Source: Flavobacterium psychrophilum
GTDB lineage: Bacteria; Bacteroidota; Bacteroidia; Flavobacteriales; Flavobacteriaceae
DNA: 23,807 nucleotides
Assembly (NCBI GenBank): GCA_022729635.1
Contig: DZAU01000034.1
Location: 1 to 23,807, forward strand
Direction of reading: 5' to 3'
A program made the position numbers and the translations under genes. The notes under the pieces were generated by a model, which worked only from the letters and a program-made list of their open reading frames with translations, did not search any database and was not told the DNA's origin. The number at the start of each line of letters is the position of its first letter. Position 1 is the first letter of the stretch. Shown piece by piece: positions 2,627 through 19,888 of the stretch.

Positions 2627-4438
2627 ATGACAACAAATAAACAAATACATACATTTCACATTCCGGTTATGGGATTGGCTTTTACGATTGATAGTCCCAT
2701 TCGAGTATCAAAATACGGAATATCCTCAGTGGTTTCTATCGCCGATGATGAACTTATTGAAAAAATGAGAGCTTTTTACAGCGAGAAATTCGATGTTCCT
2801 TATCACGAAATTACCAAAAAACTTCAGGATTATCGGGCAGAAAGAATTACTTCTTATTTGAACTTGGTCGATAAAATTGTAAAAGAAAAATTCGAAAGTT
2901 TTAAAAACGAATTAGCCGAAAGCAAACAAGCATTAGGAAATTATATTGCAATGTTGCCCAACAAATCCGAAATAAAAAAAGGATTGGAAAACCTGATGGA
3001 AGACGGAATTGCGTTTAAGGAAAATGTCAAAAAATATCTTGAAGACCATCTTTCTTCAGGTGAAATTGACGTGAATATTATGACCAAACTCGATAAGGAT
3101 AATTTCATCAAAGACACGCAATTGCCGGTTGAATTTAATGATGCACACGCTGCTCTTCGTGGGTTTGCCAATAGCGATTTGACTTCTTCGGTGGTGCTTT
3201 CGGCAGGAATGAATCCAAGATTATTTAGTTATTTCGAAAATTTTTCAGCCTTTTTTCCTGATTTCAACAACAATCTGAAAAAGAAAATTATTTTGAAAGT
3301 GAGCGATTTTCGCTCGGCGATGATTCAAGGAAATTTCTTAGCCAAAAAAGGACTTTGGGTTTCTGAATATCGCATCGAATCTGGTTTGAATTGTGGTGGA
3401 CACGCTTTTGCTACCGATGGTTATTTATTGGGTCCAATTTTAGAGGAATTCAAACACAAAAAAGAGGAATTAATCAAATCAGCACACGATTTAATGGTGA
3501 AAGCTTTAGGGCAAAAAGAAATGCATGTTCCGGAAACGCCATTAGATTTAAAAATTACCGTTCAAGGTGGTGTAGGAACTGCCGAAGAACACAACTTTTT
3601 ATTAGAACATTACAATGTGGATTCTGTGGGTTGGGGAACACCATTTTTACTCGTTCCCGAAGCGACTTCAGTAGATGCAGAGACAAGAGAATTATTAAAA
3701 AAAGCCAAGGAAAAAGATTTGTATTTGAGTCATATTTCGCCTTTGGGAGTTCCTTTTAACACTTTACGAGGAACAACAAATGAAATATTAAAACAAAGCC
3801 GTATTGACCAAAACAAGGCAGGAAGTTCTTGCCCGAAACGATTTCTTGCATTAAGCAAAGAATTTGGCTCTGACGGAATTTGTACCGCTTCAAAGAAATT
3901 CCAAGATGTAAAATTAGACGAATTAGAGGCAGTTAAAGACACATTATCAGAAGCTGCTTTCCAAAAAAAGAAATTCGAAATCACCGAAAAAGCCTGTCTT
4001 TGTGTTGGTCTTGCCAATGCGTCTTACCTGGAAAATGACATCGAGGTAAAAGGACAATCGCAAGGTGTGATTGTTTGTCCAGGACCAAATTTAGCCTATT
4101 TTGAGAAAGAAGTTTCACTTTCTAAAATGGTGCAACACATTTATGGTAATGCCAATGTAATGACGGATGCCAATCGCCCGAATTTTTTTATCAAGGAATT
4201 GAAAATGTATATCGATTATTTGAAAAATGAAATCAGCGAAATCAGCGAAATTTCCGTTCCGCAAGTGAAGAAATTGAAAGCTTTTAAAAGCAATTTGTTA
4301 GAAGGCATTGCCTTTTATCAAACGATGTTCTCCAACTCAAATTATTTCGAAAACAGTATCAACGAAATTCAAAACCAACTCGACCATTATATTTTAGAAT
4401 TGGCTGGAGTAGAAGTGCCGGAATTAGTAGTGGCTTAA
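2627..4438 (+). CDS. Uncharacterised NPD/nitronate-monooxygenase-like TIM-barrel protein with extra cysteines
   Basis: I do not recognise a named family. Several segments look like the 2-nitropropane dioxygenase/nitronate monooxygenase fold, a flavin-binding TIM barrel. These are an N-terminal IPVMGLAFTIDSPIRVS strand, LNCGGHAFA (residues 254-262, compare EAGGH in that family), a phosphate-binding-like GGVGTAEEH (314-322), and GWGTPFLLVPE (335-345). A charged helical insertion lies at roughly 45-165 and another helical stretch at the C-terminus. Five cysteines follow the barrel motifs (402, 419, 457, 459, 484), in SSCPKR, GICTAS, CLC and VCPGPN, a possible metal or Fe-S site. At 603 residues it is much longer than ordinary nitronate monooxygenases (about 320-380). 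There is no signal peptide. It is a single-gene unit with an FNR-type promoter and a strong terminator. Fold assignment is inference; the substrate is unknown. Confidence 0.6.
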   Translation: MTTNKQIHTFHIPVMGLAFTIDSPIRVSKYGISSVVSIADDELIEKMRAFYSEKFDVPYHEITKKLQDYRAERITSYLNLVDKIVKEKFESFKNELAESKQALGNYIAMLPNKSEIKKGLENLMEDGIAFKENVKKYLEDHLSSGEIDVNIMTKLDKDNFIKDTQLPVEFNDAHAALRGFANSDLTSSVVLSAGMNPRLFSYFENFSAFFPDFNNNLKKKIILKVSDFRSAMIQGNFLAKKGLWVSEYRIESGLNCGGHAFATDGYLLGPILEEFKHKKEELIKSAHDLMVKALGQKEMHVPETPLDLKITVQGGVGTAEEHNFLLEHYNVDSVGWGTPFLLVPEATSVDAETRELLKKAKEKDLYLSHISPLGVPFNTLRGTTNEILKQSRIDQNKAGSSCPKRFLALSKEFGSDGICTASKKFQDVKLDELEAVKDTLSEAAFQKKKFEITEKACLCVGLANASYLENDIEVKGQSQGVIVCPGPNLAYFEKEVSLSKMVQHIYGNANVMTDANRPNFFIKELKMYIDYLKNEISEISEISVPQVKKLKAFKSNLLEGIAFYQTMFSNSNYFENSINEIQNQLDHYILELAGVEVPELVVA

Positions 4439-5816: not shown

Positions 5817-6545
5817 TTACTCTCTTAGAATAATTTGTATGGTTTGTGTTGATAATTTTTCGTAGTCAATACTATTGTTGGAACGTTCCAATTTTGAAAG
5901 TGTTTCCACATTATTTTTAAAATATTGAATATAATAATTACCTACATAGTTTTTACTTTCCAAAAAAGCTACCATTTCCCTTAAATCATTTTCTGCCAAT
6001 AAACCGGAATGATACGTGGTTCGAACTTCAAAAGGAAGTTGGGCTTTTAGCAACAAATTTAATGTTTTTTCGAATGAATCATATAAATTAGATTTGGTAA
6101 TGGTTTGAAATTTCGATTTTGGAGCCTTGAAATCCAAAGCAATGTAATCAATTTGATTTTCGCTTAGCAATTGTTGCATCACTTTGGGCGAACTTCCATT
6201 GGTGTCGATTTTTACCAAAAACCCCATTTTTTTTACCTCTTCAATCAGCGGAATAATCTTTTTATGCAATAAGCATTCGCCACCACTGAAAACAACAGCG
6301 TCTAATAAATTTTTTCGAGAATGTAAAAACGCAAGGATTTCCTCGAAAGAAAGTGTTCCTTTTCCGAGTACAATTTCGGGATTGTAACAATATAAACAAC
6401 GCATATTGCAGCCTGCAAACCAAAGAATGCAGGCTGATTTATGCGGATAATCTAATAAGGTAAAAGGGGTTAAACTGTAAATAGGAGTACTAACATTTTC
6501 CTTCGACAAAATGAATTCTTTGTTTGTGTTCACCTTTTTTTCCAA
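5817..6545 (-). CDS. nrdG: Anaerobic ribonucleotide reductase activating protein NrdG
   Basis: Radical SAM activase that places the glycyl radical on NrdD. The protein has 242 residues. The cluster motif CNMRCLYC (CxxxCxxC) sits near residues 46-53 inside ILWFAGCNMRCLYCYNPEIV, followed by VFSGGECLL (GGE motif) near 105. IYSLTPFTLLDYP before the motif is typical for this NrdG subgroup. The only usable start is the ATG at 6545-6543; the next conserved segment begins about 22 residues later with no other Met. The first 19 codons therefore overlap the upstream ORF (6490-6660) in another frame by 56 nt. Its substrate is normally the C-terminal glycine loop of NrdD, which here is encoded by that small upstream ORF. 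The downstream Rrf2 gene is 27 bp away. Confidence 0.93.
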   Translation of the reverse strand: MEKKVNTNKEFILSKENVSTPIYSLTPFTLLDYPHKSACILWFAGCNMRCLYCYNPEIVLGKGTLSFEEILAFLHSRKNLLDAVVFSGGECLLHKKIIPLIEEVKKMGFLVKIDTNGSSPKVMQQLLSENQIDYIALDFKAPKSKFQTITKSNLYDSFEKTLNLLLKAQLPFEVRTTYHSGLLAENDLREMVAFLESKNYVGNYYIQYFKNNVETLSKLERSNNSIDYEKLSTQTIQIILRE

Positions 6546-6660
6546 TGTTAAAACTTTCTACTGGTCTGTGATAACCCATCACGCGGGTGTAAACAAGGCA
6601 TTTGGTTCTTAAATGCTGGTTTTCTTCTAGGATAGGATTGGTTTTAGTTTCTGGTTTCAT
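6490..6660 (-). CDS. nrdD: Separated C-terminal glycyl-radical domain of NrdD
   Basis: A 56-residue ORF, MKPETKTNPILEEN to HFVEGKC, easily missed because of its size. It carries TRVMGYHRPVESFNIGKK (residues 25-42), the C-terminal signature of class III ribonucleotide reductases of the Pseudomonas type; the Gly in RVMGY (Gly29) corresponds to the radical-bearing glycine. In intact homologues this follows the zinc motif directly in one chain. Here the main nrdD ORF stops 101 bp earlier and in another frame. The leader before the ATG is A-rich (ACATAAAAAATAT), suitable for Bacteroidota initiation. The end overlaps nrdG by 56 nt, which would couple translation. It could be a functional second subunit, or the remnant of an interrupted gene. 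Confidence 0.85.
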   Translation of the reverse strand: MKPETKTNPILEENQHLRTKCLVYTRVMGYHRPVESFNIGKKGEHKQRIHFVEGKC

Positions 6661-6671
6661 ATATTTTTTAT

Positions 6672-6783
6672 GTTTAAAATTGTTTAAAGTTTAAAGTGGT
6701 TTAAAGTTTAAAGTTTCAAGTTAAGGTTTCAAGTTTCAAGTTTCGGACAGTTGCTCAACGTTAAACTTTAAACAATTTTAAAC
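6672..6783. repeat. 112-bp inverted-repeat element interrupting nrdD
   Basis: Perfect 23-bp inverted repeats lie at 6672-6694 and 6761-6783. Between them are 66 bp with short internal repetitions: TTTAAAGTTTAAAGT occurs twice near 6684-6714, and GTTTCAAGTT-like units repeat at 6713-6743. The right arm supplies the last six codons and the TAA stop of the main nrdD ORF. Length modulo 3 is 1, and deleting the 112 bp joins the upstream frame to the 56-codon ORF without a stop. No clear target duplication is visible; both flanks are T-rich on the plus strand. It looks like a small non-autonomous element or dispersed repeat rather than a coding insertion. Confidence 0.75.
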
Positions 6784-8875
6784 CTTTTTCTTTTTCTTTA
6801 ATCAAGGCATCGTCACATTTTGGACAATATTCGTGTTCGCCATTCAAATAGCCGTGAACAGGACAGACGCTAAACACGGGAGTTACCGTGATATAAGGCA
6901 ATCTAAAACTCGAAACTACTTTTTTAACAAACTGTTTGCAGGCTTCAGGCGAACTCATTTTTTCGCTCATATACAAGTGTAAAACGGTTCCACCAGTGTA
7001 TTTGCATTGCAATTCATCTTGCAAAAGCAAAGCTTCAAAAGGATCTTCGGTATGATCTGCCGGTATTTGTGAACTATTGGTATAATAAATATTTTCTTCT
7101 TGTCCGGCTTGTATAATATTTGGGAAACGTTTTTTGTCTTCTTTTGCAAAACGATACGTAGTTCCTTCGGCTGGCGTGGCTTCAAGATTGTATAAATTCC
7201 CGGTTTCTTCCTGAAATTCTTTCATTCGACCACGAATATGTTCTAAAATTTCGGAAGCAAAATCAATTCCTGTCGAAGAGGTTACTGTATCTTGTTTGCC
7301 AGTAAAATTGACAATCATTTCGTTGATTCCGTTTACCCCAATGGTCGAAAAGTGATTTCTGAAATGTTGCAAATAGCGTTTGGTATAAGGATACAAACCT
7401 CGGTCGTACATTTCCTGGATGAATACTCTTTTTTTCTCCAAAGTTGATTTCGAAAGGTATAATAATTTGTCTAATTGTTTGAATAATTCTTCCTTGTTCC
7501 CTCTATATAAATAACCCAAACGTGCCATATTTATAGTCACAACACCAATACTTCCAGTCATTTCGGCACTTCCAAAAAGACCATTGCCACGTTTGAGCAA
7601 TTCGCGTAAATCGAGTTGCAAACGACAGCACATACTGCGAACCGCATTGGGTTTGTAGGCATTTTCGTTTTCAACTTTGTTTCCGTTATCGTCTAATTTA
7701 TATTGACTTCCAATGAAATTTTGGAAGTAGGAAGAACCAATTTTTGCCGTATTTTCGAAAAGCAAGTCGGTATTTTCTCCGTCCCAATCAAATTCTTCGG
7801 TAATATTTACCGTCGGGATTGGGAAAGTAAAAGGCTGTCCGTTAGCATCGCCTTCGGTCATTACAGTATAATAGGCTTTGTTGATGAGGTTCATTTCCTT
7901 TTGGAAATGCTCGTAACGCAAATCGGTTACTTTATTTACGCCACGTTCTTGAGCTCTAACCAAAAGGTCGTGATTGAAATTATTTTCAAAAAAATGAAAG
8001 TCGTTTTTTGTTGGAATTTGGGTTTTCAAATCCTCAGGGACAATCCAATCCAGAGTGATATTCGTAAAGGGCGATTGTCCCCAACGTGCGGGAACATTCA
8101 AATTATAGACGAAACTTCGAACCGCTTTCAAAACATCGTCAAAGGATAAATCGTCTTTGAAAACATAAGGAGCTAAATAAGTGTCAAACGAACTGAAGGC
8201 TTGTGCTCCAGCCCATTCGCTTTGCAAAATACCTAAAAAATTCGCCATTTGACCCAAAGCTTCCCTAAAATGCGATGGCGCTTTGCTTTCAACACGACCA
8301 CGAACACCATTAAAACCTTCGTTGAGTAAGACACGCAAACTCCAACCGGCGCAATAGCCTGTCAGGCAATCTAAATCGTGAATGTGAACATCGCCATTTC
8401 TGTGTGCATAACCTTCTTCTTTGGTGTAAACTCGGTCTAACCAATAATTAGCAATGATTTTTCCGGCAACATTATTTACTAAACCTGCATTGGAATAAGA
8501 GGTATTCGCATTGGCATTGATGCGCCAATCCGTTTGTTCAATATATTCTGCTATGGTTTGTGAGCTGTCAACATAAGTGGTGTCATCATTAATTCCTTCT
8601 ACGTGTTCTCGTTGTAATTTCCGAGTGTGACGGTACAACATAAAGGAGCGCATTACTTCAAAATACTGTTTTTCGAAAAGGCTTTTCTCAATTAAATCCT
8701 GAATTTCTTCGACCGCCCAAGTTTCTTTGGATTGCAATCCATTGATAACATTTTCAAAAACACTTTCGTCGAATGCTATGGTGGCACTTTTAAAACTTTT
8801 TGAGATGGCATCCTCAATTTTGAAACTTTCAAACGGTTTATAATCTCCGTTCCTTTTGATAACGTACTTTTCCAT
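6761..8875 (-). CDS. nrdD: Anaerobic (class III) ribonucleoside-triphosphate reductase NrdD, lacking the glycyl-radical end
   Basis: Reduces NTPs to dNTPs without oxygen. The 704-residue chain has an N-terminal ATP cone (YVIKRNGDYKPFES, residues 4-17), HDLDCLTGYCAGWSL in the barrel, and SMCCRLQLDL with Cys416/417, one of which is expected to be the thiyl-radical cysteine. It ends with a zinc-type segment, Cys671-His674 and Cys684-Cys687 (CPVHGYLNGEHEYCPKC). A normal NrdD continues for another 40-60 residues with the RVMGY radical glycine. Here the chain ends in GLKLFKV, codons contributed by the inverted repeat at 6761-6783. The missing part is encoded at 6490-6660 in another frame. Ric lies 40 bp upstream, nrdG and an Rrf2 regulator downstream. 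Activity depends on whether the two pieces associate. Confidence 0.93.
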   Translation of the reverse strand: MEKYVIKRNGDYKPFESFKIEDAISKSFKSATIAFDESVFENVINGLQSKETWAVEEIQDLIEKSLFEKQYFEVMRSFMLYRHTRKLQREHVEGINDDTTYVDSSQTIAEYIEQTDWRINANANTSYSNAGLVNNVAGKIIANYWLDRVYTKEEGYAHRNGDVHIHDLDCLTGYCAGWSLRVLLNEGFNGVRGRVESKAPSHFREALGQMANFLGILQSEWAGAQAFSSFDTYLAPYVFKDDLSFDDVLKAVRSFVYNLNVPARWGQSPFTNITLDWIVPEDLKTQIPTKNDFHFFENNFNHDLLVRAQERGVNKVTDLRYEHFQKEMNLINKAYYTVMTEGDANGQPFTFPIPTVNITEEFDWDGENTDLLFENTAKIGSSYFQNFIGSQYKLDDNGNKVENENAYKPNAVRSMCCRLQLDLRELLKRGNGLFGSAEMTGSIGVVTINMARLGYLYRGNKEELFKQLDKLLYLSKSTLEKKRVFIQEMYDRGLYPYTKRYLQHFRNHFSTIGVNGINEMIVNFTGKQDTVTSSTGIDFASEILEHIRGRMKEFQEETGNLYNLEATPAEGTTYRFAKEDKKRFPNIIQAGQEENIYYTNSSQIPADHTEDPFEALLLQDELQCKYTGGTVLHLYMSEKMSSPEACKQFVKKVVSSFRLPYITVTPVFSVCPVHGYLNGEHEYCPKCDDALIKEKEKGLKLFKV

Positions 8876-9993: not shown

Positions 9994-10428
9994 ATGCTTT
10001 CAAAATCACAAGCAAGGGCATTTTTTTTGGGAGGAACATTAGTCACCTTTTTAATTTTTATAGGATTGACCGTTTATTCCTTTATGCCAAAAAACGACCA
10101 AACCAACTTTGGCAAAATAGATGCTCAAGTTGTAAAAGGTAAAGAAATTTGGGAATCCAATAATTGTATGGGTTGCCACACCGTTTTAGGCGAAGGAGCT
10201 TATTATGCTCCCGAATTGACAAAAGTTATCGACCGTAGAGGCGAGGCTTATGTAAAAGCTGTTTTAATGTCTAAAGAACCTTGGCAGCCAAGAGGAAGAA
10301 AAATGGTTGCTTATGGTATGAACGATGCCGATGCCGAAGCGGTAGTGGCCTATTTTAAATGGATTGGACAAATTGATTTGAATGGTTTTGACCGTGTGGT
10401 TTCTCCTTTAGCTAAAACAAATAATTAA
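9994..10428 (+). CDS. norC: Nitric oxide reductase cytochrome c subunit NorC
   Basis: Membrane-anchored monohaem cytochrome c that passes electrons from periplasmic donors to NorB. The protein has 144 residues, normal for NorC (about 146-150). One N-terminal transmembrane helix (about residues 9-30, FFLGGTLVTFLIFIGLTVY) anchors it, the haem motif CMGCH is at 58-62, and the downstream GRKMVAYGM segment offers the methionine ligand. GEGAYYAPELTKV and KEPWQPRGRKM match the NorC family. It is the first gene of the operon, 12 bp before norB, and its promoter carries the FNR-type site at 9875-9890. It should act in the inner membrane facing the periplasm. Confidence 0.96.
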   Translation: MLSKSQARAFFLGGTLVTFLIFIGLTVYSFMPKNDQTNFGKIDAQVVKGKEIWESNNCMGCHTVLGEGAYYAPELTKVIDRRGEAYVKAVLMSKEPWQPRGRKMVAYGMNDADAEAVVAYFKWIGQIDLNGFDRVVSPLAKTNN

Positions 10429-10440
10429 AATTAAATTACG

Positions 10441-11778
10441 ATGAAATATAAATCACAAAAAGTAGCCTATTGGTTTTTTGCACTATGTATGCTTTTGTTC
10501 TCTTTACAAATCATATATGGTTTTATAATGGGCTTTGATAGAATAGGAATACAAGGACTGCATGACATTATTCCGTTTAATACGGCAAGAGCAGTACATA
10601 CTAATTTATTGGTAGTTTGGCTTTTAACTGGTTTTATGGGTGCTGCTTATTACATCATTCCCGAAGAAGCGCAAATCGAATTGGTAAGTGTAAAATGGGC
10701 TTATGTGCAGCTTATATCATTAGCTGTTGTGGGCGTTGTAGCAATAATTGGTTTTCACTTAAATCACTGGGAGGGCAGAAAATTTCTTGAAATTCCAAGA
10801 GAATTAGATTTTCTAGTTGTAGTCAATGTTTTGCTTTTTTTAGGATTAATTTTAGGAACTTTATTCAAAGGAAAACGCCAAACCACTACCGCTTTAGTGC
10901 TTTCAATGGGATTGCTGTTTGCTGCCTTGTTATATCTTCCGGGTATGATCTGGTTCGATAGTCAGGTTATGGATTCTTTCTTCCGTTGGTGGGTTGTTCA
11001 CCTATGGGTTGAAGGTGTTTGGGAATTAATTATGGGTGGTATTTTATCTTATTTATTAATAAAACTAACAGGAGTTGATAGAGAAGTTATCGAAAAATGG
11101 TTGTATGTAATCATTGGTTTAACTTTCCTTTCGGGAGTTTTAGGAACTGGACATCACTATTATTATATAGGAGTAAATAAAATTTGGTTAATCGTTGGTG
11201 GAATATTCTCTGCATTGGAACCATTAGCATTCCTTGCTATGGCATTATTTGCAGTTAATATGTATAGAAAAGGCGAAAAAAGTCATCCAAATAAAATTGC
11301 TTTATTCTGGACAATTGGTTCTGCGATAGTTTCTTTTATTGGGGCAGGATTATTGGGTTTTGCACATACTTTACCCCAAGTTAACCTATACACACACGGG
11401 ACTTTAGTTACCGCAATGCACGGACATTATTCTTTTTGGGGAGCTTATGCCATGATTGTTTTGGCAATAATTAGTTATGCAATGCCAAATTTAACAGGCA
11501 GAAAACGTTACGATAGCACACAAGGACATTTGGCTTTTTGGTTATCCAATATAGGAATTCTGGGAATGACGGTTGCTTTTGGAGTAGCTGGTGTGGCACA
11601 AGTCTATATGGAACGAAAATTAAAAATGGATTTTATGGAAGTTCAAAACGAAATCGCCGTTCATTTTGTGGTGCTTCTTATTTGTGCAACAATGTTTACC
11701 GTTGGAATCGGGCTGTTTATCTCCGATTTTATAAAATATGGAACTCCAACCGACGAGGCTTTAGAAGAAACCAAATAA
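10441..11778 (+). CDS. norB: Nitric oxide reductase catalytic subunit NorB (cNOR)
   Basis: Reduces two NO to N2O at a haem b3/non-haem iron centre; inner membrane, about 12 helices. The protein has 445 residues. All expected ligands are visible: His53 (AVHTNLL), His187 with Glu191 and Glu195 (VHLWVEGVWE), His238-His239 (GTGHHYYYIG), and His327 and His329 (AMHGHYSFWG). From His187 on, these are offset by 20 from what I recall of the Pseudomonas aeruginosa residues (207, 211, 215, 258, 259, 347, 349), so the active-site spacing is kept. There is no quinol-oxidising N-terminal extension, and norC is adjacent, so this is the cytochrome c type. A hairpin with a T run follows in the 118-bp gap before norQ. 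Confidence 0.97.
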   Translation: MKYKSQKVAYWFFALCMLLFSLQIIYGFIMGFDRIGIQGLHDIIPFNTARAVHTNLLVVWLLTGFMGAAYYIIPEEAQIELVSVKWAYVQLISLAVVGVVAIIGFHLNHWEGRKFLEIPRELDFLVVVNVLLFLGLILGTLFKGKRQTTTALVLSMGLLFAALLYLPGMIWFDSQVMDSFFRWWVVHLWVEGVWELIMGGILSYLLIKLTGVDREVIEKWLYVIIGLTFLSGVLGTGHHYYYIGVNKIWLIVGGIFSALEPLAFLAMALFAVNMYRKGEKSHPNKIALFWTIGSAIVSFIGAGLLGFAHTLPQVNLYTHGTLVTAMHGHYSFWGAYAMIVLAIISYAMPNLTGRKRYDSTQGHLAFWLSNIGILGMTVAFGVAGVAQVYMERKLKMDFMEVQNEIAVHFVVLLICATMFTVGIGLFISDFIKYGTPTDEALEETK

Positions 11779-11810
11779 ATCTTTATACTAACTAATTCAA
11801 TTATTGCCTG

Positions 11811-11884
11811 CCAGAATCCTTTAGCAACCTTTTTTTAGAATTTAATTTCCAAAGAAATACGGTTAATGGGTTCTGGTTTTTTTA
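11811..11884 (+). terminator. Imperfect hairpin with T run between norB and norQ (attenuator candidate)
   Basis: The left arm CCAGAATCCTTTAGCAACC (11811-11829) pairs imperfectly with the right arm GGTTAATGGGTTCTGG (11861-11876), and seven Ts follow directly. The loop is about 30 bases, so the structure may be weak. In this place it could lower norQ-norF expression relative to norCB. Confidence 0.4.
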
Positions 11885-11896
11885 ATAAAAATTAAA

Positions 11897-12676
11897 ATGT
11901 TAGAAAACACACCTTATTATCACGCTGTAGGAAAAGAAATCGAAGTCTTTAATCAAGCCTATAAAAACAAAATTCCATTTCTTTTAAAAGGACCAACAGG
12001 AACAGGAAAGTCTCGTTTTGTTGAATATATGGCGCATCAATTAGATAAAAAAATCATCACCATTAGCTGTCACGAAGAAACATCTTCGACCGATTTGATA
12101 GGAAGATTTATCATCAAAGGTGCCGAAACGATTTGGCTCGACGGACCATTAACTACTGCCGTAAAAGAAGGAGCGATCATTTATCTGGACGAAATTGCCG
12201 AAGCACGTCCCGATGTAATTGTTGCCATTCACTCACTAACCGACCATCGGCGTGAACTTTTTATCGATAAATTGGGGGAAACCATAAAAGCGCACGAAGA
12301 TTTTATGTTGGTTGCTTCATTTAATCCTGGTTATCAAAGAGGTTTTAAAGAGTTGAAACCTTCAACTCGCCAGCGTTTTATTGCCATTTCTTTCGATTAT
12401 CCTGAACCAAAAATTGAAACCGAAATTTTGATAAACGAAACTCAAATAGATGCTGATACTGCCAAAAAATTAGTTGCTATTGGAAACAAAATCAGAAACT
12501 TGACAGAATTAGGTTTGACCGAAACGGTTTCCACTCGGCTTTTAGTCGATGCAGCAAAAATCATTCATAGCGGATTACCAAAAAGATTATCCGTTCACGT
12601 CGCCATCGTAGAACCACTTACCGATGATTTGCAAACCGTGGAAGCATTGAAAGATTTGTGTAACTTAATGATATAA
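11897..12676 (+). CDS. norQ: NorQ, MoxR-type AAA+ ATPase for NO reductase activation
   Basis: Together with NorD it is needed to insert or activate the non-haem iron of NorB (NorQ/CbbQ group); cytosolic, probably hexameric. The 259-residue protein has Walker A GPTGTGKS (32-39), Walker B IIYLDE (94-99), a sensor-type SFNPGYQRG and the arginine-containing STRQRF. Its size fits NorQ. It lies 118 bp after norB with a possible attenuator in between, and its stop codon is directly followed by an inverted-repeat element that separates it from norD. Context between norB and a NorD-type VWA protein makes NorQ more likely than CbbQ or a general MoxR. Confidence 0.93.
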   Translation: MLENTPYYHAVGKEIEVFNQAYKNKIPFLLKGPTGTGKSRFVEYMAHQLDKKIITISCHEETSSTDLIGRFIIKGAETIWLDGPLTTAVKEGAIIYLDEIAEARPDVIVAIHSLTDHRRELFIDKLGETIKAHEDFMLVASFNPGYQRGFKELKPSTRQRFIAISFDYPEPKIETEILINETQIDADTAKKLVAIGNKIRNLTELGLTETVSTRLLVDAAKIIHSGLPKRLSVHVAIVEPLTDDLQTVEALKDLCNLMI

Positions 12677-12852
12677 GCCCCTAACCCCCGAAGGGGGAAT
12701 TTAGAGAGCAATAAATGATAAAAATAATTATTTCCTTGAAGCTAATTAAGGAAATTATGTTTTTGCAATGATAACTTAAATTGATAAAGTTATTAGTAAT
12801 GTAAATTCCTATTGACCCCTAATAGGAGTTCCCCCTTCGGGGATTAGGGGGC
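12677..12852. repeat. Inverted-repeat element between norQ and norD (about 176 bp)
   Basis: The left arm (12677-12699, GCCCCTAACCCCCGAAGGGG and on) and the right arm (12829-12852) are near-perfect inverted copies differing by one C and one C/T change. Each arm can also fold on itself (CCCCC-GAA-GGGGG type). Two further internal hairpins exist: TTTCCTT/AAGGAAA (12731-12754) and ATAACTT/AAGTTAT (12771-12793). The element begins at the base after the norQ stop and ends five bases before the norD ATG, so it fills the whole gap and supplies the sequence in front of norD, including a G run. It is probably a dispersed non-autonomous repeat of flavobacteria. Confidence 0.75.
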
Positions 12853-12857
12853 TTATT

Positions 12858-14633
12858 ATGGGTTTCGAAATTGATGAGTATATTGTAGGGAAATTTTTTA
12901 GGCATTTCAAAAAAAACAAAAAAGTTGATTTTGAAGTGCTTGAACGTACCGTTACGCTCAACGAAATCAGACCGCGGTTGACTATTTTGGCACGAGCAAT
13001 TACGGGTTTTCCTATCGAAATTTTCCCGGCTGAACGTGAAGGCGGTTACAAAAACAATAATTTTTTCCTTCCAATTTCGTTCTCTGAATTTCCAACTTTA
13101 GACCAAAATAAAGATTTTTATTTGTTCCGAATCCTGTATTTGAGTATTCAACAACGATTAAATTTGAATTGGAACGCATTTGAAAAGGAGTCTTCTTTGC
13201 AAATTTCACAACAAAAAGCCGAAGAATCTGCCGAAGAAATTTTGACAATCTTATTTAAAGAATTTCCTATTTCAAATGGAATTTATACTAAAGCCAAACA
13301 ACATTATATCGAAAAAGGAACTCCTAAAAAATCAGTCGATTTTTCTTGGATTTATGGCAAATGGATGCGTAATGAAGCCGAAGAAAAACCAGAAACTATT
13401 TTAGAAAATTTTTCAGACAAAATAAAAAATGCTGCCGAAAATCAAGCTTTAACTACCATAAAGGCAAAAGCAGTCGAGGAAGTAATCACTTTGGTTTTAG
13501 ACAAAAAACAACAAGAAGATTATGTGTTGCAACACAGATATGAAAAAGTAGAAACTGCCGATGAATTCAATGGAACCTGGCGCGATTTTGACGGCTCGGA
13601 CGAACTAGAAGATCATCAAGAAGCTTTAGAGGAATTGAATATGAAGTTTACCGTGAGGGTTGATGACACTTCACATTCTGTGTATCAGGCAGATTTTATC
13701 GAAAACACAAGTATAAATGAAAGTGCTGAGGTCGATACAAAAGGGTTTCATCTTTGTTATGACGAATGGGATTTTGGCAAACGCATTTATAAAGAGAAAT
13801 TTTGCAAAGTCTATCCAAAATTGCAACAAAAAACGGATAGTAATTATTATAAAAATACCATTTCAAAAAACGCTTCAACCTTAATGGGTCTGCGAAAAAT
13901 GCTGACTAATGTAAATAATAAAATGCAGCAACAACGCCGTCAATCACAAGGCGATGAGTTTGATATTGACGCTATTACCGATTTGTATATTGATGTGCAT
14001 TCGCAACGTACACCTTCGGATAAAATTTATATATCTAATCGGAAAAAAGAAAAAGATTTATCAATACTGTTGCTTTTAGATATCAGCCTTTCGAGTGATT
14101 CTTATGCTGACGGAAATCGCGTGATAGATGTCGAAAAAGAGGTTTCTATCCTTTTCGGAGAAATTCTTAATGAATTTAATATCGATTTTTCTATCGATAG
14201 TTTTTATTCTAAAACCCGGAATTTTTCAACCTATTTGACGGTTAAGGATTTTGATGAAAATTGGAATATTGGGAAACATAAAATAGGAGCTGTTGAACCT
14301 AGTGGCTACACACGAATTGGTGCCGCTTTGCGACATGCTGGGACAAGACTAGACAAAAGAAAAACCAAAAACAAATGGGTAATCCTGATTTCTGACGGAA
14401 AGCCTAATGATTATGATAAATACGAAGGTAAGTATGGCATAAACGATGTGAAACAAGCCCTTCGAGAACTCAATAAAAAAAACATTAATTCCTACGCATT
14501 AGCTATCGAAGCTCAAGCTAAATATTATTTACCACAAATGTTTGGGCAAAACCACTATCAGATTCTGACAACTCCAGTAGAATTATTAGAGTCTTTAGTA
14601 AAATTATACGAAAAAATTAAACATCAAAAATAA
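12858..14633 (+). CDS. norD: NorD, von Willebrand factor A domain protein for NO reductase activation
   Basis: Partner of NorQ in maturing NO reductase. The 591-residue protein has a long N-terminal helical region and a C-terminal VWA domain (about 395-590). The metal-ion-dependent adhesion motif DxSxS is intact at residues 408-412 (DISLS), with the later threonine likely in SGYTRIG and the aspartate in ISDGKPND. The start at MGFEIDEYIVGKFF reads like a natural NorD N-terminus. The start codon lies five bases after the inverted-repeat element, so its translation signals come from that element. The hemerythrin/PAS gene follows after 13 bp, keeping the operon tight on that side. Confidence 0.9.
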   Translation: MGFEIDEYIVGKFFRHFKKNKKVDFEVLERTVTLNEIRPRLTILARAITGFPIEIFPAEREGGYKNNNFFLPISFSEFPTLDQNKDFYLFRILYLSIQQRLNLNWNAFEKESSLQISQQKAEESAEEILTILFKEFPISNGIYTKAKQHYIEKGTPKKSVDFSWIYGKWMRNEAEEKPETILENFSDKIKNAAENQALTTIKAKAVEEVITLVLDKKQQEDYVLQHRYEKVETADEFNGTWRDFDGSDELEDHQEALEELNMKFTVRVDDTSHSVYQADFIENTSINESAEVDTKGFHLCYDEWDFGKRIYKEKFCKVYPKLQQKTDSNYYKNTISKNASTLMGLRKMLTNVNNKMQQQRRQSQGDEFDIDAITDLYIDVHSQRTPSDKIYISNRKKEKDLSILLLLDISLSSDSYADGNRVIDVEKEVSILFGEILNEFNIDFSIDSFYSKTRNFSTYLTVKDFDENWNIGKHKIGAVEPSGYTRIGAALRHAGTRLDKRKTKNKWVILISDGKPNDYDKYEGKYGINDVKQALRELNKKNINSYALAIEAQAKYYLPQMFGQNHYQILTTPVELLESLVKLYEKIKHQK

Positions 14634-14646
14634 AATTAAATTTAAA

Positions 14647-15612
14647 ATGTACGACAATTCAATCTCAACAACATTAGCCGAAGGGCATCCAGTTAAAACG
14701 TATTATCAGGAAAAAGAACTTATTAATTCCCTTTTAGATGAATTATCAGTTGCTAAATCAAAAAACGATTTATTAGAATACACTAATATTTTCAACCAGA
14801 TTCAAACCATAGAAAAGCGATTTGCCAGAAAGGAAAATCAGTTGTTTCCGTTTTTGGAAAAAAAAGGATGGAATGGACCATCGCAGGGAATGTGGGGCTT
14901 TCACGACAATTTGAGAGAACAGCTTAGACTCTTACGCAAAAACATTGACTATAAAGAATGGGATAAAATTAGTACCAATACACCGTATTTAGTTGATGGA
15001 ATTCATCGTTTAATGCAAGTCGAAGATACAGTTTTGTTTCCCAATGCCTTGGATATGCTGACAGAAAGCGATTGGATTGTAATGAGAAAAGGCGAAGAAG
15101 AAATAGGCTGGATGTTGCCAGAAGATCCAGAACCTTTCCCAAAAACAGATTACATTCACCCGAGTGAAGATTTTACAAAAAGAGATATTTCTTTTTCAAC
15201 AGAAAACGCTTCGCATTATGATGAAGGTTATATGACGGTAGAACAAGTAAATTTACTTTTAAAAACAATGCCTTTAGATTTGACATTCGTTGATGAAAAT
15301 GATAAAGTGATTTTTTACAATCGTGGTGAAGAGCGCGTTTTTCCTAGAAGTGCCGGAATCATTGGTCGTGAAGTGAAATTTTGTCATCCTCCAAAAAGTG
15401 TAGGAACGGTGCTAAAAATCGTTGAAAGCTTTAAAAATGGCTCTCAAAACGAAGCTTCTTTTTGGATAAATTTCAAAGAAAGATTGATATATATTCGTTA
15501 TTTTGCTGTTCGTGATGCCGATAAAAATTATAAAGGAGTTATCGAATTATCGCAAGATATTACAGATATCAAGAAAATTGAAGGCGAACAACGATTATTA
15601 GATTGGGAATAA
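14647..15612 (+). CDS. DUF438-type protein: hemerythrin-like domain plus PAS domain
   Basis: The 321-residue soluble protein has two recognisable parts. Residues 1-140 look like the hemerythrin-like HHE fold of DUF438 proteins, with likely iron ligands in GHPVKTYY (His14), RKENQLFPFLE (Glu63), WGFHDN (His86) and IHRLMQVEDTVLFP (His120, Glu126). Residues 195-315 form a PAS domain (DLTFVDENDKVIFYN at its start, then FCHPPKSVGTVLKIVESF, ending in IELSQDITDIK). There is no transmembrane segment and no output kinase or cyclase domain. It sits inside the nor operon, 13 bp after norD and 4 bp before norE. A role in sensing or buffering NO or O2 or in iron delivery to NorB is plausible, but not shown by sequence. 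It is not a normal part of the proteobacterial nor cluster. Confidence 0.8.
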   Translation: MYDNSISTTLAEGHPVKTYYQEKELINSLLDELSVAKSKNDLLEYTNIFNQIQTIEKRFARKENQLFPFLEKKGWNGPSQGMWGFHDNLREQLRLLRKNIDYKEWDKISTNTPYLVDGIHRLMQVEDTVLFPNALDMLTESDWIVMRKGEEEIGWMLPEDPEPFPKTDYIHPSEDFTKRDISFSTENASHYDEGYMTVEQVNLLLKTMPLDLTFVDENDKVIFYNRGEERVFPRSAGIIGREVKFCHPPKSVGTVLKIVESFKNGSQNEASFWINFKERLIYIRYFAVRDADKNYKGVIELSQDITDIKKIEGEQRLLDWE

Positions 15613-15616
15613 AAAA

Positions 15617-16198
15617 ATGAGTTTATCAAAAATAGATTATAAAAACATATATTATCCACCGGGAGGAATTCTGATGTGGATAATTATTTGTATAGAACTT
15701 CTTACCTACGGAATGGCACTCGTGTCTTTTATTTATCATGGAAGACTAGAACCCGAAGTGTTTCATCAATCCCGTATGCATTTGAACACGACTTTTGGCA
15801 CAATTAATACGATTTTTTTATTGACCAGCGGATTGTTTATGGCAGCAGCGGTGCACGAATTCAAGGAAAACAATAAATCAAAATCCTCTCTTTATTTCAA
15901 GTTAGCCATGCTTGGCGGATTGGTTTTTATTATTGTAAAAAGTATAGAATATTACCAAAAAATAGAAGCAGGGTTTTCATTAGAGACCAATATGTTTTTT
16001 ACTTTTTATTGGTTATTGACCGCTTTTCATCTTATACATGTAGTTGTCGGATTAGTGATTTTGGGATGGATAAATAGAGGGATAACCAAGGAAAATTCTG
16101 AAACTTCAGTCGAAGATGTCGAAGCTAGTGCGGCCTTTTGGCACATGTGCGATTTAATTTGGCTTTTATTGTTTCCGGTTTTATATTTAATCTTCTAA
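15617..16198 (+). CDS. norE: NorE-like haem-copper oxidase subunit III family protein
   Basis: The 193-residue membrane protein has about five helices (GGILMWIIICIELLTYGMAL; INTIFLLTSGLFMAAAVHEF; YFKLAMLGGLVFIIVKSIEY; FTFYWLLTAFHLIHVVVGLV; and a C-terminal helix). It belongs to the cytochrome c oxidase subunit III family. FHLIHVVVGL and the terminal WHMCDLIWLLLFPVLYL are typical of it. The shorter-than-CoxC length and location in the nor operon point to NorE, an accessory protein that raises NO reductase activity but is not catalytic. It is followed after two bases by the NorF-like gene. Confidence 0.88.
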   Translation: MSLSKIDYKNIYYPPGGILMWIIICIELLTYGMALVSFIYHGRLEPEVFHQSRMHLNTTFGTINTIFLLTSGLFMAAAVHEFKENNKSKSSLYFKLAMLGGLVFIIVKSIEYYQKIEAGFSLETNMFFTFYWLLTAFHLIHVVVGLVILGWINRGITKENSETSVEDVEASAAFWHMCDLIWLLLFPVLYLIF

Positions 16199-16200
16199 AA

Positions 16201-16440
16201 ATGAAAAAAGAATTTCTTTATACCTACATTATCTTAATTCTACTTACAGGAACTGTTGCTTTTTTGGCTTCCGTAACTATAATTTCTAAGGAAATGATTT
16301 TCTTGATTATGGGAATTTCAGCCATAAAATTTTTATTGGTTTCCTTTCAATTTATGGAACTAAAAAAAGCAAATTCTTTTTGGAAAGTTGTAGTACTGCT
16401 TTTCTGGGTTTGTTTTTTGTTGATTTTGGTTAGTATTTAA
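16201..16440 (+). CDS. norF: NorF-like small membrane protein (subunit IV-like)
   Basis: The 79-residue protein has three hydrophobic segments (FLYTYIILILLTGTVAFLAS; EMIFLIMGISAIKFLLVSFQ; VVLLFWVCFLLILVSI). An in-frame ATG exists at 16138 inside norE, but the ATG at 16201, two bases after the norE stop, gives a protein of normal NorF size and avoids the overlap. MGISAIKFLLVSFQFMEL resembles prokaryotic cytochrome oxidase subunit IV proteins, to which NorF belongs. It is the last gene of the nor operon; no clear terminator is seen before the nrfH promoter. The exact role of NorF is poorly defined. Confidence 0.8.
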   Translation: MKKEFLYTYIILILLTGTVAFLASVTIISKEMIFLIMGISAIKFLLVSFQFMELKKANSFWKVVVLLFWVCFLLILVSI

Positions 16441-16455
16441 AAATCTTATAAAATC

Positions 16456-16498
16456 TGATAATTATCATAAAAAGGAATTTTTATCCTTTTTATATTTG
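16456..16498 (+). promoter_or_regulatory. FNR-type operator plus -7 box of the nrf operon
   Basis: TGATAATTATCA (16456-16467) is a perfect palindrome with the FNR core TGAT-N4-ATCA. TATATTTG (16491-16498) is a full match to the Bacteroidota -7 consensus. The centre-to-box distance is 29.5 bp, identical to the norC and 603-residue-protein promoters. This is the best example of the three. Confidence 0.75.
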
Positions 16499-16546
16499 TA
16501 CTATTATTAGATTTAAAAATTAAGGGGTTTTAATAAAATATTAATT

Positions 16547-17161
16547 ATGAAAGCGAGATGGATTAGAAGAATGTATCCGCCACCAGAATGGAGACCAGCA
16601 GTGATATTGCTTATTGGAATAGTAATAGGTTTGGGGTTTTATATGCTCAAAATTGCAAATGTGGCTTCTTACGCCTCAGACGATCCAAAGGCTTGTATTA
16701 ACTGTCATGTTATGAATACGGAATATGCAACCTGGCTAACTTCCTCGCATGCCAAAAAAGCCAGTTGCAACGATTGTCATGTCCCACACAATAATGTTTT
16801 TAATAAGTACTTTTTTAAAGCAAAAGACGGACTCTATCACTCGTTTGTTTTTACCACTCGAACGGAACCCGAAGCCATAATTATGCACGAAGCTGGGCAA
16901 GGAGTGGTTAAAGAAAATTGTATTCGGTGTCATGACCGACAATTAAAAAACCCAAAACAATCCAATTTGATGGTTGATTATGATGTGCATAGAACCGACA
17001 GAAAATGCTGGGATTGCCATCGTGAAGTGCCTCATGGTCGAACAAAAAGTCTGTCTTCATCATCGATGTTTGGCAAAAGAACTGAAGAAGGTGACGCCAG
17101 AATGCCACAATGGCTATCAAAACAATTGTCAGAAAAAGAAAATAATAAAGAAAAAAAATAA
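16547..17161 (+). CDS. nrfH: Cytochrome c nitrite reductase membrane subunit NrfH
   Basis: Tetrahaem quinol dehydrogenase of the NapC/NirT family that feeds electrons from menaquinol to NrfA. The 204-residue protein has one N-terminal helix (about 17-36, PAVILLIGIVIGLGFYML) and four haem motifs: CINCH (50-54), CNDCH (74-78), CIRCH (125-129) and CWDCH (154-158). The family length is 160-200; the surplus is a charged lysine-rich tail. It precedes nrfA by five bases, as in epsilonproteobacteria and other Bacteroidota. It acts at the periplasmic face of the inner membrane. Confidence 0.96.
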   Translation: MKARWIRRMYPPPEWRPAVILLIGIVIGLGFYMLKIANVASYASDDPKACINCHVMNTEYATWLTSSHAKKASCNDCHVPHNNVFNKYFFKAKDGLYHSFVFTTRTEPEAIIMHEAGQGVVKENCIRCHDRQLKNPKQSNLMVDYDVHRTDRKCWDCHREVPHGRTKSLSSSSMFGKRTEEGDARMPQWLSKQLSEKENNKEKK

Positions 17162-17166
17162 ATATT

Positions 17167-18669
17167 ATGAATCCTATTAAAAAAAGAAATATAAGAAATT
17201 GGTCTTTTCTTATTGGTACAATACTAATTGTTTTTGTGTTAGGTCTGCTAGCTACATCAATTATTGAGCGAAAATACGAATCAAGCTATGCCGGATTAAG
17301 TAAAAAAGACATTAAGCAAAACGATCCCAGAAATGCAGTTTGGGGCGAACAGTTTCCGCAACAATATGAAAGTTATATGGCTACCGAAGATTCTACTTTT
17401 AAAAGTATGTACAATGGAAATGCGATGATTGATGAACTTGAAGAGGATCCAAAATTAGTAATTCTTTGGGCTGGTTATGCTTTTGCAAAAGATTACAATC
17501 AAAGTAGAGGACATGCTTATGCGGTTAAGGATGTACGCAATAGCCTACGCTCAGGAAATTTATACCCAACTGATACAGCCAAAGGAATGCCTGGCACTTG
17601 CTGGACTTGTAAAAGCCCCGATGTACCACGTTATATGGCCGAAAAAGGAGTGGCTGAATTTTATAAAACTTCTTTCGAAAAATTAGGACCTGAAATTGTA
17701 AATCCAATTGGTTGTGGTGATTGTCACGATTCTAAAACAATGAACCTTACCATTACACGTCCAGCTTTGGTTGAAGCTTATACGAATCAAGGCAAAGACA
17801 TCAAAAAAGCAACTCATAACGAAATGCGTTCCTTAGTTTGTGCTCAATGTCATGTTGAATACTACTTTGACAAAAAATCAGTCAAAAATCCTAAAGTTCC
17901 CTACCTGACTTTTCCATGGAAAAACGGTATGAAAGCCGAAGATATTGAAAAGTATTATGATGAGAAAGAGTTTAAAGATTGGGTACACCCAATTAGTAAA
18001 GCCAAAATGATTAAAGCGCAACACCCTGATTATGAAACATACACAACAGGTATCCATGCAAAAAAAGGAGTTTCTTGTGCCGATTGTCACATGCCGTATA
18101 AAACTGAAGGAGGAACTAAATTTACAGATCATCATATACAATCTCCATTAAATAATATTCAAAATTCTTGTCAAGTATGTCATAGAGATGATGCTAATTC
18201 GTTGATTGATGATGTTTATACTCGCCAAAAAAGCATCAAAGAAAATGTGAATTCTCTTGAGGATAATTTAGTTAAAGCGCATATTGAAGCTGGAGCTGCT
18301 TGGAAGTTAGGAGCAACAGAAGCTCAAATGAAAGACATATTATTGGATATTCGTCACGCTCAATGGCGTTGGGATTATGCAACTGCCGGACACGGAGCTT
18401 CATTTCACGCTCCAGTTGAAATTAGCAGAACAGTTTCGTCTGGACTTGCACTTGCTTTAGACGCTCGTGTTAAATTAGCGAGATTATTAGCCAGTTTAGG
18501 GCAAAAAAATCCTGTAGCAATGCCAGACATTTCCACCAAAGCTAAAGCTCAGGCTTTTATAGGCTTAGATATGAATAAGCTAAAAGCGGATAAAGCCAAA
18601 TGGAAAAAAGAAATTCTCCCTACTTGGGATGCAAAAGCAAAAGAAAGAGAAAGTAAGTATGGCAAATAA
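17167..18669 (+). CDS. nrfA: Ammonia-forming cytochrome c nitrite reductase NrfA
   Basis: Pentahaem enzyme reducing nitrite (and NO) by six electrons to ammonium in the periplasm. The 500-residue protein has the special active-site haem motif CWTCK (145-149), with lysine instead of histidine, followed by CGDCH (183-187), CAQCH (225-229), CADCH (304-308) and CQVCH (335-339). RHAQWRWDYATAGHGASFH near 400 carries late conserved histidine ligands. The N-terminus has a hydrophobic segment (about 12-32) without a clear cleavage site, so it may remain membrane-anchored. The 3' end overlaps resB by 11 bp. The CXXCK type needs a dedicated or tolerant haem lyase, which fits the next two genes. Confidence 0.97.
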   Translation: MNPIKKRNIRNWSFLIGTILIVFVLGLLATSIIERKYESSYAGLSKKDIKQNDPRNAVWGEQFPQQYESYMATEDSTFKSMYNGNAMIDELEEDPKLVILWAGYAFAKDYNQSRGHAYAVKDVRNSLRSGNLYPTDTAKGMPGTCWTCKSPDVPRYMAEKGVAEFYKTSFEKLGPEIVNPIGCGDCHDSKTMNLTITRPALVEAYTNQGKDIKKATHNEMRSLVCAQCHVEYYFDKKSVKNPKVPYLTFPWKNGMKAEDIEKYYDEKEFKDWVHPISKAKMIKAQHPDYETYTTGIHAKKGVSCADCHMPYKTEGGTKFTDHHIQSPLNNIQNSCQVCHRDDANSLIDDVYTRQKSIKENVNSLEDNLVKAHIEAGAAWKLGATEAQMKDILLDIRHAQWRWDYATAGHGASFHAPVEISRTVSSGLALALDARVKLARLLASLGQKNPVAMPDISTKAKAQAFIGLDMNKLKADKAKWKKEILPTWDAKAKERESKYGK

Positions 18670-19888
18670 AAAAACAGGCCAATGGAGTTATAATGAGTCT
18701 TTTATCATTGGAATTACATTACTTTTATTAGGGATTGTTTTTCAGGTTTTTTCAGGAGACATTATAAAAATAAATCTTCATTGGCCTTATAATTTTATTG
18801 TATTTTTCACTCATATTGTTTTATGCACCTTATGGTTTGTGTTTTTTAAAAACACAGCAATAGTGAGTTGGATAACCAAGGTTCCAGCTTCCATGGTGTC
18901 AATAGTTCTTGTGTTGTTTTTAACGATGCTTATGGGTACGATACCACAAACAGTAAATAATAACAGTGCATTTATTGAACTATTTGGATTAAATAAAATC
19001 ACACAAACCTGGTATTTTTTATTAGTAGTATTCTTTTTTTCTACTTGTCTGTTGATGATAAGTATAAAAAAAATAGCATTAGGATTACTATCTAATCTAG
19101 GTTTTTTAGCCAATCATTTGGGGTTATACATTGCCTTGAATGCCGGGGTTTTTGGTTCTGGTGATTTAATTCGTTATACCATGGAACTCAAGGAAAATAA
19201 GATTTCATGGGTTGCTAATGATGCTAATAAAAAGGCAGTTGAAATGCCCTTTGCCGTAGTTCTCGAAGATTTTGATATGGAAGATTTTCCCCCAAAGTTG
19301 GCGATAATTAATCAAGAAGGAAAGTTGCTTACCAAAAAAGGGAAAAATCTTTTTTTGGTAAAAAAAGGATTGAAAGTTGAATTAGAAAACAATTATGTTG
19401 TTGATGTAATAGATTATATTCCCGAAGCCGTAAAATTTGACAATAGTTATCGTTCAGTAAATCAAGAAGGAGCAACTCCTTCCGTGTATGTTAAAGTTTT
19501 CAATAACAAAACTGGTTTTAAAAGTGAAGGTTGGCTTGCTTCAGGAACTTTTTTGTATGATCAACAATATCTCGGTTTAGAAAAACATCAGTTTTTAGTA
19601 TTAACAAAACCGGAACCTAAAAAATTTAGCTCAAAAATCAAGGTTTTTACCATTGACAAAGAAGAATATTCAACTGTTTTAGAAGTCAACAAACCATTTG
19701 AAGTGATGGGCTGGAAATTGTATCAACTGAGTTATGACGAACGTTTTGGTAAATACTCAACCACATCTACCATAGAATTAGTGAAAGATCCTTGGTTGCC
19801 AGTAGTGTATGTTGGGATATTTATGATGATTTCTGGAGCCATTTATCTTTTCTTCATAGGGAACATAAAATCTAAAAAAAATGATTGA
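18659..19888 (+). CDS. resB: ResB/Ccs1-like cytochrome c maturation protein
   Basis: System II cytochrome c biogenesis subunit that works with CcsA/ResC to deliver haem and hold apocytochrome. The 409-residue protein has helices near residues 10-105 and about 118-150 (NLGFLANHLGLYIALNAGVF), a large extracytoplasmic domain, and a last helix near the C-terminus (LPVVYVGIFMMISGAIYLFF). The chosen start MANKKTGQWSY overlaps the nrfA end by 11 bp; an in-frame ATG 30 bp earlier would lengthen the overlap. The last codons overlap ccsA by 8 bp. Epsilonproteobacteria and many Bacteroidota have the two parts fused as CcsBA/NrfI; here they are separate. Its place after nrfA suggests it serves the CXXCK haem of NrfA. 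Confidence 0.85.
   Translation: MANKKTGQWSYNESFIIGITLLLLGIVFQVFSGDIIKINLHWPYNFIVFFTHIVLCTLWFVFFKNTAIVSWITKVPASMVSIVLVLFLTMLMGTIPQTVNNNSAFIELFGLNKITQTWYFLLVVFFFSTCLLMISIKKIALGLLSNLGFLANHLGLYIALNAGVFGSGDLIRYTMELKENKISWVANDANKKAVEMPFAVVLEDFDMEDFPPKLAIINQEGKLLTKKGKNLFLVKKGLKVELENNYVVDVIDYIPEAVKFDNSYRSVNQEGATPSVYVKVFNNKTGFKSEGWLASGTFLYDQQYLGLEKHQFLVLTKPEPKKFSSKIKVFTIDKEEYSTVLEVNKPFEVMGWKLYQLSYDERFGKYSTTSTIELVKDPWLPVVYVGIFMMISGAIYLFFIGNIKSKKND

Follow-up and report, generated by a model that had tools for sequence, protein, structure and literature searches.

Here we describe a class III ribonucleotide reductase (RNR) whose radical-bearing glycine appears to reside on a polypeptide of its own. The locus lies in contig DZAU01000034.1 of Flavobacterium psychrophilum, analysed over positions 1 to 23,807 (hereafter the window). 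There nrdD, which encodes the large catalytic chain, is followed by a 56-codon open reading frame (ORF) with the glycyl-radical (GR) motif and then by nrdG, the gene of the activase. Our preferred reading, to which we assign a probability of roughly 0.88, is that nrdD, the small GR gene and nrdG form the operon of a conserved two-subunit class III RNR. The GR chain, encoded by a separate gene in hosts and by an orphan gene in viral records, would act in trans on the large chain.

A class III reductase encoded in two pieces

By its best-matching families the large chain is a class III NrdD. It passes the curated cut-off of NF006126 (the NF006126/PRK08270 subfamily) with 1068.6 bits against 548, while class II models reach only the ATP-cone region and stay far under cut-off. 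The MCCR motif at residues 415–418 aligns with MGCR of the Prevotella copri chain, and we take its cysteine to be the thiyl-radical cysteine. As the initial annotation of this DNA had stated, the 704-residue chain ends just past its zinc motif (CPVHG...CPKC, residues 671–687): the last cysteine is residue 687 and 17 residues remain before the stop. The glycyl-radical motif is absent from this chain itself and is located in the adjoining 56-aa ORF, with an NrdG-type activase nearby; the radical-glycine signature that had been read in this ORF is indeed there, with Gly29 as the predicted radical glycine. On the Pfam PF13597 NRDD profile (562 positions) the large chain covers positions 2–528 and the 56-aa ORF positions 532–562, so that the two chains jointly amount to a near-complete family member, with the cut falling after the zinc motif and ahead of the radical-glycine loop. 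At E up to 1 the GR chain matched no Pfam family other than PF13597 NRDD, with no kinship to the radical domain of pyruvate formate-lyase (PFL), and a search of the PDB with the GR profile returned no match, even at E 10. The nrdG ORF overlaps the 3′ end of the GR ORF, and its start is uncertain (TTG 6545, GTG 6533 or TTG 6509). The coordinates of all features are collected in Table 1.

Table 1. Features of the nrdD–GR–nrdG locus in the window
Feature	Position	Strand	Remarks
NrdD large chain, 704 aa	6761..8875	-	ATP-cone, catalytic domain and zinc motif; without glycyl-radical motif
Glycyl-radical (GR) chain, 56 aa, RVMGYHRPVESFNIGKK	6490..6660	-	Own ATG behind an A-rich leader
nrdG, radical-SAM activase	5817..6545	-	TIGR02495 NrdG2, 199 bits against a cut-off of 131
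Inverted-repeat element, 112 bp	6672..6783		In the nrdD–GR spacer; source of the final codons and the stop of NrdD
Left 23-bp arm of the element	6672..6694	+	Perfect inverted repeat
Right 23-bp arm of the element	6761..6783	-	Overlaps the 3′ end of nrdD

The split is conserved and the small ORF is constrained

Conservation of the split across species, together with purifying selection on the 56-codon ORF, had been named in the initial annotation as support for a two-part enzyme, and both were found. Genome contigs were scanned for NrdD and the best 80 of 561 hits were taken as relatives. The GR motif lies in an ORF of its own in 78 of these 80 and is fused to NrdD in none; in the other two (L007 and L067) the contig ends too early. 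Since the same anatomy recurs in 78 of 80 other contigs, an assembly error in the window is a minor matter. In one relative (L069) the large ORF is broken in the assembly and the GR ORF is still separate; this locus was left out of the ORF set. Two contigs with a Flavobacterium-like nrdD (L067 and L068) are filed under metagenome-assembled genomes (MAGs) of Klebsiella pneumoniae and Bifidobacterium breve, and are probably binning errors. One NrdD per genome was counted in each of the three relatives' genomes that were checked. The protein homologues listed (120 of 7999 scored) measure 694–708 aa, apart from three of 675, 720 and 734 aa; these lengths agree with the split but do not prove it.

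GR ORFs, for which the script took ATG starts only, were collected from 92 loci, 86 of them distinct, with the cut locus L007 excluded. The ATG stands 18–36 codons ahead of the motif in all 92, and A is the commonest base at every position from -12 to -2 before it (in 35 to 68 of 86). An ORF with a radical-SAM motif, nrdG in the window, comes next after the GR ORF in all 90 loci whose downstream sequence extends for 300 nt or more (two further loci end too early and were left out). The initial annotation had noted that the small ORF keeps its motif, an A-rich leader and its coupling to nrdG.

Across the 32-codon GR core (81 distinct sequences) the mean proportions of nonsynonymous (pN) and synonymous (pS) differences were 0.034 and 0.656, giving a pN/pS of 0.052, compared with 0.116 for the 100 NrdD codons that end at the zinc motif. 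Judged by this substitution pattern, the small GR ORF is under strong purifying selection. One locus with a GR ORF of only 40 codons (L008, discussed below) was excluded from this count.

The inverted-repeat element entered an existing junction

In the window the two ORFs are separated by a 112-bp element with perfect 23-bp inverted arms, the right one of which writes the end and the stop of NrdD, as had been described. Removal of 6672–6783 produces a single 757-residue frame through EKEKDKKYMKPETK, also as described, and the initial annotation had concluded from this arrangement that nrdD is cut by the element. In the case of a recent knockout, the repeat would have landed in a whole nrdD gene and left behind two decaying fragments; the exact position of the element between the parts and the open frame upon its removal speak for it. 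However, when ten deletion lengths from 108 to 117 bp were tried, three of them (109, 112 and 115) left the frame open, in line with the one length in three that chance alone would give.

In the nearest relatives, L001, L002 and L004, the NrdD and GR ORFs overlap by 17, 11 and 17 nt, and BLAST, which covered loci with flanks of no more than 4 kb on either side, found no element-like sequence in these three. Since they are split without the element, the element is not the cause of the split. The window GR core differs from theirs by 1 nonsynonymous and 9–10 synonymous changes, which likewise argues against decay. We thus give a recent knockout very little weight, and the claim that the element cut nrdD does not hold.

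It is more improbable still, to the point of being negligible, that the repeat made a functional split specific to this strain. The stop codon does come from the element here, but the split is present in 78 of 80 relatives, whereas element-like sequence occurs in only 6 of 81 sequences: the window, L006, L010, L017, L018 and L028. The suggestion of a natural two-subunit class III reductase created by a small repeat is strongly supported in its first half, by the conserved split and the purifying selection, and unsupported in its second, given the element-free L001, L002 and L004.

The element thus entered a pre-existing junction, displaced the overlap and now supplies the NrdD stop; in the two-subunit reading, the repeat would have colonised the nrdD–GR spacer after the split already existed. 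The element-like matches always fall inside this spacer, and in three of the five other loci they are just 19–24 nt long. Set against the features of miniature inverted-repeat transposable elements or of repetitive extragenic palindromes, the element has perfect 23-bp arms, one copy within the window and similar pieces in five other loci. Palindromic elements of TTTAAAGTTTAAAC type, whole or in pieces, were seen in the nrdD–GR spacer of several Flavobacterium.

Spacing of the two ORFs argues against a single chain

A single chain could still be produced if programmed frameshifting or readthrough carried translation over the junction. The spacing between NrdD and GR ranges from -41 to +287 nt with all three frames represented, and in favour of a frameshift, the GR ORF sits in one and the same frame, +1, wherever the two ORFs overlap (38 of 86 distinct loci). 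Against it, the 48 other distinct loci have spacers of 12–287 nt and between them use all three frames. In 45 of the 48 the GR frame contains a stop at or beyond the NrdD stop, so that a single frameshift cannot join the chains. Every GR ORF taken has an ATG at its head, and GR genes also exist as orphans with no adjoining NrdD (see below). We therefore consider production of a single chain very unlikely.

Distribution over phyla and on plasmids

Genome samples were drawn around one Flavobacterium genome, which is included in each of them, and the samples overlap; genomes above the NF006126 cut-off were counted as having a member. In the class-level sample 8 of 295 genomes have a member and all eight are split, and at the order level the same holds for 9 of 246 genomes (9/9 split). 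The phylum-level sample contains 20 such genomes among 345, ten split and ten fused. Most genomes in the three samples have no NF006126-type NrdD. When the GR profile was run on the 295 class-level genomes, eight strong matches were obtained, all in frames of 56–85 aa; four weak ones (E 0.0025–0.008) were not counted. Two profile searches for GR-length proteins scored 7993 of 7999 and 7999 of 7999 candidates, and among the 120 matches listed for each, the sources include Flavobacterium and Bacteroidia in one search and Arcobacter, Sulfurovum and Campylobacter in the other. Not all of these matches are shown to stand alone, since short contigs may cut longer proteins.

Two overlapping searches yielded 28 and 29 plasmid records, and 16 regions were opened. 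Nine are split (Sulfuricurvum, Bradyrhizobium, Cupriavidus necator H16, Paracoccus, Thiothrix, Aquabacterium, Shinella, Azospira and Sulfuricystis), four are fused (Actinomyces, Acidiphilium, Acidithiobacillus and Geoalkalibacter), one has an orphan GR gene and two are undecided (C. metallidurans CH34 and Cereibacter). On the Sulfuricurvum plasmid NrdD and GR overlap by 4 bases. The orphan, at 2980–3189 on Allochromatium vinosum pALVIN01, has the gene of a CHAP-domain protein as its neighbour, and the annotation of the 6-kb stretch lists no NrdD. On pAZI09 of Azospira sp. I09, a plasmid typed as conjugative, the genes for class I alpha, split class III nrdD, GR, nrdG and class I beta follow one another consecutively. 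The GR genes are currently annotated as ‘anaerobic ribonucleoside-triphosphate reductase’ (nrdD) or as ‘hypothetical protein’.

Plasmid pHG1 of C. necator H16 encodes a 676-aa NrdD (76.19 kDa) without a GR motif and, after a 142-nt gap, a 66-aa GR chain and nrdG. A 1999 study of the C. necator enzyme reportedly gave a mass of 76.2 kDa and placed the radical on Gly-650. In the large chain, position 650 falls within the zinc motif (THGYL), while it is the 66-aa chain that carries the radical motif. The pHG1 nrdDG genes are reported to be essential for complete denitrification (PMC2864759), which makes this case the best available sign of a working two-part enzyme. For C. metallidurans CH34 the same paper gives NrdD as Rmet_5137 and NrdG as Rmet_5139 (PMC2864759), and the skipped tag Rmet_5138 may be the GR gene.

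Phylogeny of split and fused proteins

Trees were built on chosen sets of 51, 32 and 29 proteins. In the first, outgroup-rooted tree (39 split and 12 fused proteins) the split proteins form one clade, with the group of five fused proteins from the phylum sample apart from them. The 29-protein tree, built without the radical domain and midpoint-rooted, likewise sets six fused proteins on the opposite side, namely the five from the phylum sample and that of Geoalkalibacter. Its fully supported clade comprises 21 split proteins plus the fused ones of Acidiphilium and Actinomyces, both of which are placed in the mostly proteobacterial part of the clade. With the plasmid sequences added, a clade of split proteins alone was rejected (p-AU 0.023), a result to be taken with caution given the long branches.

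The split is best read as an old one, common to Bacteroidota, Campylobacterota and Proteobacteria and probably derived from one origin or few. The tree fits one old split with later re-fusions, or repeated splits; from the fused members that sit among the split ones, the part seems to have been rejoined, or to have come apart, repeatedly.

Orphan GR chains in viral records

IMG/VR was scanned with the GR profiles, which gave 10 loci and then the best 80 of 129 that qualified. Nine of the first set (L142–L150) are on the same contigs as nine of the second (L160–L239), and the tenth, L151, was dropped as it has no GR motif, which leaves 89 loci on 80 contigs. The scan patterns select the split-type motif, and other viral NrdD types were not counted. 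An orphan NrdD-type GR chain, with no NrdD match within the stretch examined, is present in 78 of the 80 contigs. By locus, 86 of 89 have a short free-standing GR frame and no NrdD match (one of the frames is open at the contig start). A single contig (L145/L180) carries nrdD, then the GR ORF, then an unclassified ORF in the position of nrdG, and in L214 the GR motif lies inside a 362-aa open frame without similarity to NrdD. All 50 viral records searched over their whole length (12.6 to 212 kb, from 50 of the 80 contigs) matched only at the radical loop, in frames of 44–148 aa, and TIGR02487 detected no NrdD body in these records, which may be fragments. In another search, of 10 viral records, one holds a split nrdD, with an NrdD body and a stop inside the match.

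The neighbours of the viral GR genes include genes for endolysin, terminase, head-tail adaptor, head closure and portal proteins, methyltransferase and thymidylate synthase. No shared neighbour emerged from a PHROG scan of 55 of 62 upstream and 50 of 63 downstream proteins, in which no family occurred in more than 3 of the 55 or 2 of the 50. A role as a lysis-cassette gene was considered and dropped, as no common neighbour family was found. The GR chains of L142 and of the window, the only two scanned, both match phrog_4132, listed as ‘unknown function’.

Could the viral GR genes be host genes at miscalled virus boundaries, or non-functional passengers? Judging by the form of their names, some records seem to derive from isolate genomes and are possibly proviruses with loose ends; viral records may be fragments, and the scan used the motif itself as its pattern. 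Isolated phages, too, lend this some support: the window GR chain had no match at E 0.001 in 50,697 isolated phage records, and the few weak matches at E up to 1 (four records with a viral chain and three with the C. necator chain) include one that was inspected and falls within a phage NrdD. Against it stand the structural, packaging and lysis genes among the neighbours and the absence beside the viral gene of nrdD and nrdG, its flanks in hosts. So does a pN/pS of 0.28 in 47 distinct viral cores, a value obtained with a regular expression that fixes part of the motif and matched 62 of the 89 loci. On balance we find this explanation rather unlikely. There is a precedent in phage T4, which carries Y06I, a spare part for PFL (PMC8683613), so that it is reasonable to read the viral genes as GR chains that phages bring along for NrdD. 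By analogy, phages may supply the GR chain alone, in the fashion of a spare part.

A possible mechanism and its relation to known systems

In P. copri NrdD the zinc site is followed by a buried loop carrying the radical glycine (PMC11226230). In the two-subunit enzyme the large chain would provide the ATP-cone, the catalytic barrel with the thiyl cysteine and the zinc site, while the GR chain of about 55 residues, translated from its own ATG, would dock into this body as the buried radical loop. NrdG would then put the radical on the glycine of the small chain, Gly29 here. Class III enzymes are cleaved by oxygen at the glycyl radical (PMC3019208), and since cleavage occurs there, only the small peptide would be lost. 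The advantage could be that oxygen destroys only a cheap, replaceable peptide that phages may also supply. More broadly, we think it fairly likely that a class III RNR lineage spread over several phyla keeps its radical glycine on a subunit of some 55 residues, which can come off and serves as a replaceable cartridge, and that many phages of differing gene content carry the cartridge alone and load host NrdD with it during infection.

Several observations weigh against the two-subunit reading or qualify it. An AlphaFold2 model of the large chain, computed from 14 sequences, reached a mean pLDDT of 48.8, which is too poor to use. The two fused proteins inside the split clade mean that one split without later change is rejected, as the AU test above indicates. 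The N-terminal extension of the GR ORF (last 12 codons) has a pN/pS of 0.41, a sign of weak constraint, and synonymous sites are near saturation across the whole selection set. In the MAG contig L008 the GR ORF ends after 40 codons, through error or decay. The strain of the window could have a second nrdD elsewhere. Its GR ORF may also be coupled in another way to the translation of nrdD, since the element took the place of the usual nrdD–GR overlap.

One-chain class III NrdDs (for example P. copri 8P23, T4 1H78 and Thermotoga maritima 4COI) have an ATP-cone (of P. copri type), a catalytic domain, a zinc site and a C-terminal radical-glycine loop, each with a counterpart in the split system. 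The difference is that here the chain stops after the zinc site, and the loop forms a polypeptide of its own. GrcA/YfiD and T4 Y06I resemble the GR chain as it is read here, being small autonomous glycyl-radical proteins that serve a large enzyme and can be phage-carried (PMC8683613). However, YfiD repairs an enzyme that owns a radical domain, whereas the present enzyme is a ribonucleotide reductase and its large chain has no such domain to begin with. As of 2021, PMC8683613 names only YfiD and Y06I as validated spare parts, both for PFL, with others speculated.

Two-chain RNRs are also known from class II, in NrdJa/NrdJb of Pseudomonas aeruginosa (PMC4520616 and PMC9669993), but NrdJ is a cobalamin enzyme and the large chain described here is of class III. 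Phage nrdD and nrdA genes fragmented by introns, inteins and homing endonucleases, as in Aeh1 and phiAS4, are a further case of RNR genes in pieces, some of them functional (PMC3653736). Unlike these sporadic and mostly insertion-driven cases, the split described here has been kept over several phyla at one domain boundary. In the literature searched, which left most subscription papers outside, we found no description of a class III RNR that has its radical domain on a chain of its own; this is no proof that the arrangement is unpublished.

Oxygen inactivates glycyl-radical enzymes at the site of the radical. A two-part ribonucleotide reductase would be a natural case in which separate proteins can be used to study how the radical is installed and how the part that bears it docks and is replaced. 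The reading also corrects annotation, in that small ‘nrdD’ or ‘hypothetical protein’ genes and phrog_4132 would be GR chains. If the viral chains work, phages would aid the DNA precursor supply of their hosts with a gene of about 50 codons.

Surroundings of the locus in the window

The wider gene content of the window includes a RIC iron-sulfur repair protein, an Rrf2 regulator, NapC/NirT-type and c552-type cytochromes and cytochrome assembly genes, surroundings that suit life between oxygen and anoxia. The cytochromes, with the NapC/NirT-type cytochrome and the cytochrome c552 gene among them, belong to a respiratory cluster at 9994–20666, near the RIC gene. Two more inverted repeats were seen in the window, at 12678–12850 with 22-nt arms and at 2284–2413 with 28-nt arms.

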